From positions 1 through 64,000 of the forward strand of contig JAUXUL010000008.1 in NCBI GenBank assembly GCA_030680795.1: DNA of 64,000 nucleotides, in the 5' to 3' direction. The translations under genes and the position numbers were made by a program. Shown here piece by piece: positions 35,301 to 38,974 of this stretch (positions are counted from its first letter, which is position 1; every line of letters begins with the position of its first letter). Under the pieces are notes generated by a model. That model did no database searches. It had not been told where the DNA came from and saw only the letters and a list, made by a program, of their open reading frames with translations. Origin of the DNA: Anaerolineales bacterium (GTDB lineage Bacteria; Chloroflexota; Anaerolineae; Anaerolineales; Villigracilaceae).

Positions 35301-35741
35301 TCAATCGTTTTGAAGAGGATTACGGGGCCGCGGAATGCGTGACGGAAAATTGGCCATTCCTTTTTTATAAACCACGCGGCTGGATTGGACTCGCGCTGCG
35401 CCAAAATTGATAACAATCGCCAATTCAAGACCTGTTGCTTTCAAATAGGATAATGCCTGCTGCTCATAAATTTTTGCAATTTCGCTCACGGCTTTGTATT
35501 CAAGAATTACACGTCCATGTGCCACATTGTCAAGGATAAATTCGCCAATCGGTTCATCCTTGTAAAATACTTTGACCCGTTTTTGCCGTTCCAGATCGAC
35601 CCCCCGTCTTGCAAGTTCACGGTTCATGGCTTCTTCATAAATCGCCTCGGGAAAACCTGGACCAAGAGCATTATGCACCTCAAACGCTGCTTGCATAACG
35701 AGATATGATAATTCTTTTTCAACAATATAAATCTCAGACAT
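35301..35741 (-). CDS. GxxExxY protein, nuclease-fold-like
   Basis: The product (146 residues from Met5) belongs to the family named after its motif, here GFPEAIYEEA (G-x-x-E-x-x-Y). Other blocks are LSYLVMQAAFEVHNALGPG, GEFILDN and VILEYKAVSEI with an acidic/Lys pair, which is compatible with a PD-(D/E)XK-like nuclease fold; activity has not been established to my knowledge. The upstream Met at 35753 lies in repeat-like sequence, so I prefer 35741. No good ribosome binding site is seen. The gene is bracketed by degenerate GCGAATT-type repeats in inverted orientation and lies between an M24 peptidase and selA, which it does not resemble. Confidence 0.8.
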   Translation of the reverse strand: MSEIYIVEKELSYLVMQAAFEVHNALGPGFPEAIYEEAMNRELARRGVDLERQKRVKVFYKDEPIGEFILDNVAHGRVILEYKAVSEIAKIYEQQALSYLKATGLELAIVINFGAARVQSSRVVYKKGMANFPSRIPRPRNPLQND

Positions 35742-35745
35742 CTCA

Positions 35746-35790
35746 GTACCCATTCGCTTTATTCGAAAATTCGCGTAATTCGAGTTAAAG
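35746..35790. repeat. Degenerate ATTCGCG repeat, right flank of GxxExxY gene
   Basis: CATTCGCTTTATTCGAAAAT then TCGCGTAATTCGAGTTAAAG, the inverse sense of 35238-35300. The outer edge reaches the selA stop region. Confidence 0.6.
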
Positions 35791-38141: not shown

Positions 38142-38192
38142 AATGCATTAACAAGCATTAACAAGTAAAATGCATTAACAAGCATTAACAAG
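38139..38192. repeat. 27-bp tandem repeat, two copies
   Basis: TAAAATGCATTAACAAGCAT plus TAACAAG, twice in a row without mismatch. The first copy includes the nitroreductase stop codon. Within each unit CATTAACAAG itself is doubled. Confidence 0.85.
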
Positions 38193-38229
38193 TGAAGATC
38201 GAGCGGGGCTGAAGCCACCTGCTCAGTTC

Positions 38230-38439
38230 ATGGAAGCCCTTCGGGCTGGTGCGACGAGTCCATTTCATGAAATTTCACGAACTGAGGCAGGAATTCATTC
38301 CGCCGAATCATACGCACAAGCTCGCGCCACATGCGGGCGCGAAGCGGTCAAGTCCGTGCTGAGGTTGTTTGATGAACTGGTCAAGTGTGATGATGAGGGG
38401 ATGTTGAAAGGGGTGAGAGAGGTAATTGCGGGTTCTTGA
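38230..38439 (+). pseudogene. Possible gene remnant, 69 codons
   Basis: The first third overlaps a palindromic repeat (CTCAGTTC at 38222 and GAACTGAG at 38279, with GAAGCCCTTCGGGCT inside) and is unlikely to be protein. The last part (REAVKSVLRLFDELVKCDDE) looks helical and protein-like, and its stop TGA overlaps the edge of the DUF559-linked element. I infer a truncated gene of unknown kind; it may also be chance. Confidence 0.25.
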
Positions 38440-38592
38440 CCCCCTTCCCGTCCTTCCCCCATTCAAAACCATGAATGGGGGAAGGGGAATGTGCTGTACC
38501 TATAAAAATTTTAATTTCTTCACATCATGAGATTTATTCTCCCCCAATTGTGATCTTCAATTGGGGGAGGTGTCCGAAGGACGGAGGGGGTC
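38438..38592. mobile_element. 155-bp double-hairpin element abutting the DUF559 gene
   Basis: Outer inverted arms: GACCCCCTTCCCGTCCTTC at the left and the complement of GACCCCCTCCGTCCTTCGG at the right. Inside are two perfect hairpins, CCTTCCCCCATTCA/TGAATGGGGGAAGG (38452-38485) and CTCCCCCAATTG/CAATTGGGGGAG (38539-38569). The right arm contains GGAGG 8 bases before the DUF559 start and so seems to supply its ribosome binding site. With the tandem and palindromic repeats to its left it fills the gap 38142-38595. Confidence 0.75.
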
Positions 38593-38595
38593 TCA

Positions 38596-38952
38596 TTGCA
38601 TAAACGCATCACGCCAAAATTCTTCGGGCGAGCGAAACAACTTCATAGCGAAATGACACCTGCCGAAGCCAAGCTCTGGGCGCATCTGCGTGCGCATCGA
38701 ATGGGAGATGTCCACTTTAGAAATCAACATGCCATTGGCAACTACATTGTAGATTTCTGTGCACCGCGCAAGAAACTCATCATTGAACTGGATGGAAGTC
38801 AACATCTTGAACAGAAAGAATATGATAAGGAAAGAAGTGTTTTTCTAAAATCTAAAGGCTATCAAATCCTACGCTTCTGGAACAAAGAAGTGCTGAACAA
38901 TACGGATTCGGTCTTAACTGTGATTTGGGATACCTTGAAAGAAGAAAACTAG
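38596..38952 (+). CDS. DUF559 protein, very-short-patch-repair-like endonuclease fold
   Basis: 118 residues of the DUF559 family, distantly related to Vsr and other PD-(D/E)XK nucleases: MTPAEAKLWAHLRAHRMG, FRNQHAIGNYIVDFCAPRKK and LIIELDGSQH, where the D in VDF and the E-L-D form the expected acidic catalytic set. The start is probably the TTG at 38596, which follows GGAGG provided by the adjacent palindromic element; Met21 is the alternative. Function in the family is not established; DNA cleavage is inference from fold. The gene ends 22 bases before the acyl-CoA synthetase and does not relate to it. Confidence 0.8.
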   Translation: MHKRITPKFFGRAKQLHSEMTPAEAKLWAHLRAHRMGDVHFRNQHAIGNYIVDFCAPRKKLIIELDGSQHLEQKEYDKERSVFLKSKGYQILRFWNKEVLNNTDSVLTVIWDTLKEEN

Positions 38953-38974
38953 GCGAATAGGCAGATATAACTAC

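Follow-up and report, generated by a model that had tools for sequence, protein, structure and literature searches.

Introduction

BoxC was first noted beside envM/fabI. A 2015 study described the same motif, earlier called BoxC or PIT, as an intrastrand triplex with 23 copies in Escherichia coli (PMC4666352). These copies are of two types, with either TTA or CCG as the second loop, and five inverted pairs each join one of both types. The triplex was reported to be stable in vitro for E. coli oligonucleotides, and its formation in vivo was unsupported. In the parts of that study available to us, the origin of the E. coli motifs is called unclear, transposase or integrase remnants were not found around them, and ycjD, fabI or a nuclease are not mentioned.

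YcjD, a DUF559 protein of E. coli, had been assigned to the PD-(D/E)XK superfamily by 2005 (PMC1189080). VsrA of Caulobacter (CCNA_02930), also a DUF559 protein, is called Vsr-like and was examined for its effect in cells that lack a DNA methyltransferase (PMC12907096). Our partial survey of the literature on DUF559 and ycjD, with subscription papers and preprints outside it, turned up no link between the gene and a repeat.

Here we analyze a DUF559 gene and its upstream palindrome in a 64,000-nucleotide stretch of DNA from an Anaerolineales bacterium (hereafter the window). The original prediction, made from the letters of the window, was that the two form a mobile unit resembling IS200/IS605 or REP/RAYT, with a PD-(D/E)XK-like protein as partner.

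Results

A compound foldback lies immediately upstream of a DUF559 gene

The element is a 155-bp compound foldback (window 38438-38592, plus strand) immediately 5' of the DUF559 gene. Its outer stem pairs GACCCCC (38438-38444) with GGGGGTC (38586-38592), within 20-nt arms (38437-38456 and 38576-38595) that are 75% complementary. Hairpin 1 (38452-38485) has perfect 14-bp arms (38452-38465 and 38472-38485) around a 6-nt loop, and hairpin 2 (38539-38569) has perfect 12-bp arms (38539-38550 and 38558-38569) around a 7-nt loop. The double hairpin with inverted arms was therefore described correctly in the original prediction, including the perfect 14- and 12-bp arms; we add a mini-hairpin, GTCC-GAA-GGAC (38572-38582), visible in both sequence and fold. 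Hairpin 2 contains a pyrimidine block, CTCCCCC (38539-38545), and a purine block, GGGGGAG (38563-38569), which sequence and a triplex scan mark as a potential intrastrand triplex. The mini-hairpin separates this purine block from a third one, GAGGGGG, the mirror of GGGGGAG. The third block is part of the 3' arm GGAGGGGGTC (38583-38592, plus strand), which also serves as a strand of the outer stem. Because the GGAGG at 38583-38587 ends 8 nt before the TTG start codon at 38596, this last arm is likely to be the ribosome-binding site of the gene, as had been proposed.

Folding and compensatory changes both support this anatomy. When 38438-38595 was folded as DNA (z -5.7) or as RNA (z -5.9), 0/200 shuffles were equally stable in each case. 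Across 14 such elements adjoining DUF559 genes, the window copy included, 7 of the 23 consensus pairs have changed on both sides with pairing preserved. The element does not belong to a known RNA family as far as a search for one could tell: all five matches fell under the gathering score of their family, the best with an E value of 0.19. The sequence GACCCCCTCCGTCCTTCGGA occurs once in the window when up to 3 mismatches are allowed, and a 191-nt query finds 14 matches, the self-match counted, in its own 3.45-Mb genome.

On the left side, the TGA stop codon (38437-38439) of a 69-aa open reading frame overlaps the first two bases of the element, in keeping with the earlier description of a gene remnant that ends at the element edge. 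The DNA of this open reading frame and its surroundings (38201-38428) is also found in other genomes, which identifies it as a repeat or a remnant and not a clean host gene. We noted four matches to this dispersed sequence within one related locus (L170).

The gene encodes a small, predicted Vsr-like nuclease

The gene itself (38596-38952, plus strand, TTG start) encodes a protein of 118 aa that matches PF04480 with an E value of 4.7e-39. Its profile matches are DUF559 and MTES_1575, with none to Y1_Tnp. A profile search with DUF559 retrieved 3hrl (E 1.9e-38) and the homing endonuclease I-Bth0305I (E 7.2e-5); toxin B chains and other profile matches, with E > 0.2, were treated as chance. A structure model of the DUF559 protein (mean pLDDT 81.7) matches 3hrl and I-Bth0305I, and Vsr more weakly. 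D53, E64, D66, and H70 are among the residues that are invariant across 45 aligned DUF559 proteins (L094, which has a stop within its frame, was omitted). The predicted fold and the conserved acidic residues of the alignment together place the protein among the Vsr-like PD-(D/E)XK nucleases.

A second small PD-(D/E)XK gene, of the PDDEXK_3 kind, lies at 35301-35753 on the minus strand of the window. We looked for foldbacks around this gene and saw none.

Foldbacks flank DUF559 genes in several bacterial groups

The host genome of the window has five DUF559 matches and, by reading, a foldback near the gene start in 5/5. For a broader sample, we took the best 80 of 278 confirmed relatives, picked by protein similarity and not by repeats, and 29 further loci from the top matches in 142 genomes. 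Loci that were too short on one side were skipped in the upstream-motif, inverted-flank, foldback, and triplex counts. Among loci fetched by protein similarity alone, with L001-L014 excluded, 64/110 DUF559 domains have the motif no more than 180 nt upstream, compared with 1/277 upstream regions of other genes; at the same loci it was found in 34/109 regions downstream of DUF559 and in 2/346 random stretches.

In an orientation-aware test, a C-rich foldback was present on either side of 113/137 DUF559 genes vs 15/309 other genes of the same loci, these control genes being mostly from Chloroflexota (297/309). The outcome set against the original prediction, namely that DUF559 genes would be no commoner near the element than other genes, did not occur, and of all genes at the loci we examined, DUF559 is conspicuous for being flanked. 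The proportion was 74/90 in Chloroflexota, 19/21 in the Parasphingopyxis group, and 20/26 in 13 genomes of other groups, labelled Alphaproteobacteria, Pantoea, Deltaproteobacteria, Bacteroidota, a cyanobacterium, Bacillota, and Moranbacteria. A purine-first version of the test scored 15/137 DUF559 genes and 0/309 other genes. Inverted similarity between the two flanks reached a score of at least 16 at 43/140 DUF559 genes and at 0/804 control genes and random intervals. Such both-sided inverted flanks are a minority in Chloroflexota (18/93), and were found at 10/26 genes of the other groups and 15/21 of the Parasphingopyxis group.

C-rich foldbacks were also seen by eye near DUF559 genes in 12 plasmid or phage regions hand-picked from 50 matching records (Neisseria, Deinococcus, Sinorhizobium, Synechocystis, Pseudanabaena, Picosynechococcus, Azospirillum, Sphingomonas, E. 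coli, and one phage), 7/12 of which the triplex scan scores on at least one side.

A ribosome-binding site supplied by the element is not a general rule. A purine run precedes an in-frame start at only 57/138 loci, which argues that this role is not universal, and a complementary stretch lies upstream in 22 of the 57.

The element and gene recur as a unit and are absent from orthologous sites

The element and the gene align together at five other loci (L072, L073, L076, L077, and L117) with 70-76% DNA identity. The aligned unit starts at 38432-38455 (at 38318 in L073, which shares part of the left repeat) and ends at 38945-38957, and the flanks beyond do not align. One of these loci, L077, carries in its first 900 positions a tandem repeat of the element, the gene start, and ~70 bp of the neighboring gene, with one copy lacking most of DUF559. 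In the host genome of the window (L013, contig C45 near 6752), a DUF559-like gene is broken up by foldback elements, which seem to have taken the place of parts of it.

Empty sites, which the original prediction had asked for, were found. In a related genome (L163), the flanking genes of the window locus lie 15 bp apart vs ~830 bp in the window. The left portion of this ~830-bp stretch (38144-38437) consists of other repeats and the gene remnant; among the five aligned units, it is partly common to L073 only. The window copy offers an upstream end only, plus this one empty site.

The Parasphingopyxis group (10 genomes, 8 of which together hold 27 PF04480 matches) provides a fuller series, since the DUF559 gene can sit there between inverted foldbacks of ~35 bp. 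At a first locus, beside a gene read as nadB-like, the unit is present in 2 genomes and cleanly absent in 4; 3 genomes have other sequence, and the tenth has no match. At a second locus, between two genes read as acyl-CoA-dehydrogenase-like, 3 genomes are empty, 2 have a lone foldback, 2 a foldback doublet, 1 the full unit with a pair around DUF559, and 1 another repeat; the tenth again has no match. That other repeat (L298, genome G366) is a different inverted-repeat element, by eye like a CGTC-type REP pair, and its presence where relatives have DUF559-type foldbacks suggests a shared landing site. This group thus combines two features expected of an autonomous transposon: inverted repeats bound the gene at both ends, and empty sites exist. 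By eye, we saw no consistent target-site duplication at the compared sites, whose flanks are ~75-90% identical. This recurrence as a unit, together with the empty sites and the allelic series, supports the mobile unit that had been proposed.

From this group, we fetched 20 regions as foldback matches (12 from genome G370; L238 and L246 are one site in two genomes), and 19/20 have a doublet arrangement with at least 2 hairpins. The spacers of the doublets look unrelated to one another and to DUF559, so simple internal deletion of the unit does not account for the doublets, and we set that origin aside. One of the 20 regions (L253) has a DUF559 frame with a stop codon, and genome G368 has a doublet and a lone foldback with no DUF559 match.

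In a gene read as ileS (L238, L246, L280, L281, L284, and L287), different palindromic repeats of this group form in-frame insertions at one codon position: DUF559-type doublets in G370, G353, and G368, and a CTTCGACAAGCTCAG-type repeat in G363 and G369. G364, G365, G367, and G371 have no insertion at this site.

Many foldbacks have the arm order of BoxC repeats

Many of the foldbacks consist of a pyrimidine arm and a complementary purine arm, followed by a third arm, again of purines, that is a mirror image of the second. This Y-R-R' motif was found at 105/137 DUF559 loci, with the window element among those that score, vs 12/298 other genes (290/298 from Chloroflexota). When the third block was placed in direct orientation as a control, 71/137 DUF559 loci and 9/298 other genes still scored; the Y-R-R' test alone therefore does not prove a triplex design. 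The strict BoxC-type form, with a 3-nt second loop, was scored at DUF559 loci alone and was present at 72/146, the commonest second loops being CTA (16), TTA (15), and CCG (10). By reading, 12/19 doublets of the Parasphingopyxis group join a CTA/TTA half to a CCG/TCG half; none (0/19) join like with like, and 7/19 are degenerate or different. The window copy has a 14-nt insert with the mini-hairpin in place of a 3-nt TTA or CCG second loop. Since the mini-hairpin occupies the second loop, we regard this copy as a variant of the BoxC/PIT/TM form.

Genome-wide numbers and known transposases

Across 301 Chloroflexota genomes, the number of foldbacks rises with the number of DUF559 genes (rho 0.31; 0.10 for a reversed-pattern control). 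Foldback-rich genomes make up 17/24 of those with at least four DUF559 matches, 19/41 of those with two or three, 16/77 of those with one, and 19/159 of those with none; in the first of these classes, 6/24 genomes show no more than four pattern matches. Within families (258 of the 301 genomes), the trend is weak, being reached by 125/2000 permutations (922/2000 for the control), and relatedness explains much of the correlation. In many genomes, solo foldbacks outnumber DUF559 genes. For foldback-rich genomes that lack DUF559, something else must be invoked, for example that the gene was lost. Among the foldback-rich Chloroflexota without a PF04480 match are G017, G167, G183, G199, G103, G038, G086, G094, and G118; of the four that were tested (G017, G167, G094, and G086), 3/4 also lack a Y1_Tnp match.

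We searched 43 hand-picked genomes for PF01797 (Y1/RAYT) and found a match in 20, with five matches in the host genome of the window and one each in G369 and G370. G353, G363-G368, and G371 were without a PF01797 match, as were the foldback-rich Chloroflexota G198, G294, and G191. DUF559 and foldbacks occur together without a Y1_Tnp match in G353, G363, G365, and G366, and in the Chloroflexota G198, G294, G191, and G282. We therefore rejected RAYT/Y1 as the general mobilizer, given the many foldback-bearing genomes without a PF01797 match. A link of DUF559 to CGTC-type REPs was rejected as well, no such REP lying within 350 nt at any DUF559 locus (0/146).

A DUF559 gene of E. coli adjoins a BoxC-like repeat

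In E. coli, a DUF559 gene, ycjD, occupies a single locus between sapF and fabI; one place covers at least 80% of the ycjD region in 3362/5426 genomes. The ycjD-fabI interval contains sequence that is, by reading, nearly identical to type A motifs given in PMC4666352. This likeness rests on reading, and the repeat is scored by neither the Y-R-R' nor the strict triplex scan. We sampled 60 records at even steps down a ranking of 5386 and counted places matching a 241-nt query of the ycjD repeat region, which is not a strict count of BoxC copies. The 37 records with ycjD have 10-26 matching places (median 19) and the 23 that we counted as lacking it, because their best place spans no more than 26% of the query, have 1-14 (median 3), a difference that is confounded by phylogroup. 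We set aside a simple empty site in E. coli, as the three strains without ycjD that we fetched carry an efflux operon there. An efflux operon at the ycjD position is described in PMC12817139.

Discussion

We observed that foldbacks are associated with DUF559 genes, that the two recur as a unit, that orthologous sites are filled in some genomes and empty in others, and that the unit and the doublets have common ends. We suggest, with a probability of about 0.6, that the element and its DUF559 gene together make up a minimal mobile unit with BoxC/PIT/TM-type foldback ends on which a Vsr-like nuclease acts. The only gene of such a unit would be the small Vsr-like PD-(D/E)XK nuclease, its ends would be foldbacks of the intrastrand-triplex kind, and the dispersed solo foldbacks and inverted doublets would be its non-autonomous relatives. 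The nuclease might recognize the hairpin or triplex of its ends when these are single-stranded or extruded, and nick or cut there. Host repair or replication could then copy or paste the foldback, either alone or together with the gene, into a new site that would often lie just behind a stop codon.

Might the gene instead be a passenger that rides between or beside foldbacks moved by RAYT/Y1 or another enzyme? Solo foldbacks are more numerous than DUF559 genes in many genomes, foldback-rich genomes without the gene exist (19/159), and Y1_Tnp matches do occur in the host genome of the window (five) and in G370 (one), the source of 12/20 fetched regions. We nonetheless consider a passenger gene unlikely: the eight genomes listed above have DUF559 and foldbacks but no Y1_Tnp match, DUF559 is singled out as flanked among the genes of the examined loci, and transposase or integrase remnants were not found around the E. 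coli motifs in the accessible portion of PMC4666352.

The fold invites a different proposal, in which DUF559 would be an endonuclease of the homing type, cutting empty alleles, and the foldbacks would serve only as homology arms or as favored landing pads. The closest named fold of known role is indeed the homing endonuclease I-Bth0305I, and sites in the Parasphingopyxis group hold different repeats in different genomes, as a hot spot would. Yet the units occupy many sites among which we saw no shared target, and homing leaves the dispersed doublets with the same ends unexplained, which makes this proposal improbable. We give very little weight to the reading of the foldback as a regulatory leader or terminator that simply descends with DUF559. 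It would account for the stable RNA fold of the window element and for the likely ribosome-binding site that the foldback gives in the window and, by reading, in several relatives; it sits poorly with solo copies that have no gene, with foldbacks that also lie 3' of the gene, with presence and absence at orthologous sites, and with solo elements already polymorphic between species. The purine run before the start, too, is present at fewer than half of the loci (57/138, with a complementary stretch upstream in 22).

Because the DUF559 gene adjoins palindromic repeats in several phyla and comes and goes with them, we regard DUF559 (YcjD in E. coli) as a strong candidate, on comparative sequence evidence, for the missing enzyme that spreads BoxC/triplex repeats. 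This link to the BoxC/PIT/TM repeats of E. coli is an addition to the earlier reading of the window. We would lay even odds on the wider proposal that DUF559 proteins, YcjD included, are dedicated mobilizing nucleases of these repeats throughout bacteria, and that their units, at ~410-520 bp, are the smallest single-gene transposable elements known to us. A candidate enzyme makes the spread of BoxC repeats testable in E. coli K-12. If the proposal is true, a widespread protein family with no assigned function would gain one, and the association of BoxC-type repeats with genome instability could be seen in a new light.

How does the unit compare with known systems? Vsr is an enzyme of mismatch repair and I-Bth0305I one of intron homing. 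Both share a predicted fold and sequence profile with DUF559 and, to our knowledge, neither is bounded by foldback repeats. Caulobacter VsrA is, like the window protein, a Vsr-like protein with a DUF559 domain, but the account of VsrA, as far as it was available, leaves flanking repeats unmentioned, unlike the situation of the window gene (PMC12907096). Rickettsia palindromic elements are in-frame palindromes inside genes, like the insertions in the ileS-like gene of the Parasphingopyxis group; some are described as CGTC-tagged (PMC3733652), unlike DUF559-type foldbacks.

In appearance, REP/RAYT is the nearest analogue. As in REP/REPIN and RAYT, palindromes flank a small gene, inverted doublets are non-autonomous, and many copies lie just behind stop codons. 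The partner differs: it is a HUH/Y1 transposase in REP/RAYT and a PD-(D/E)XK nuclease (PF04480) in the DUF559 unit, and the transposase that defines REP/RAYT is absent from this unit and from many of the genomes. IS200/IS605 likewise has a Y1 transposase, whereas the protein of the window unit has no Y1_Tnp match. The analogy first drawn, REP/RAYT with a PD-(D/E)XK protein, thus holds for the architecture, with its inverted doublets, dispersed solo copies, and foldback-bearing genomes without a Y1_Tnp match. We know of no mobile element that relies on a lone PD-(D/E)XK nuclease.

The repeats themselves most resemble BoxC/PIT/TM (TMECO). In the available text of PMC4666352, these have pyrimidine-purine-purine arms and TTA or CCG second loops and are dispersed in many bacteria, like the DUF559 foldbacks, and their inverted pairs join both types, as do 12/19 doublets of the Parasphingopyxis group. 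Unlike for the DUF559 units, a partner gene is not named in that text, and no function in mobility is reported close to the motif. Beside BoxC/PIT/TM, the window copy is a longer, compound form in which the mini-hairpin replaces the 3-nt second loop.
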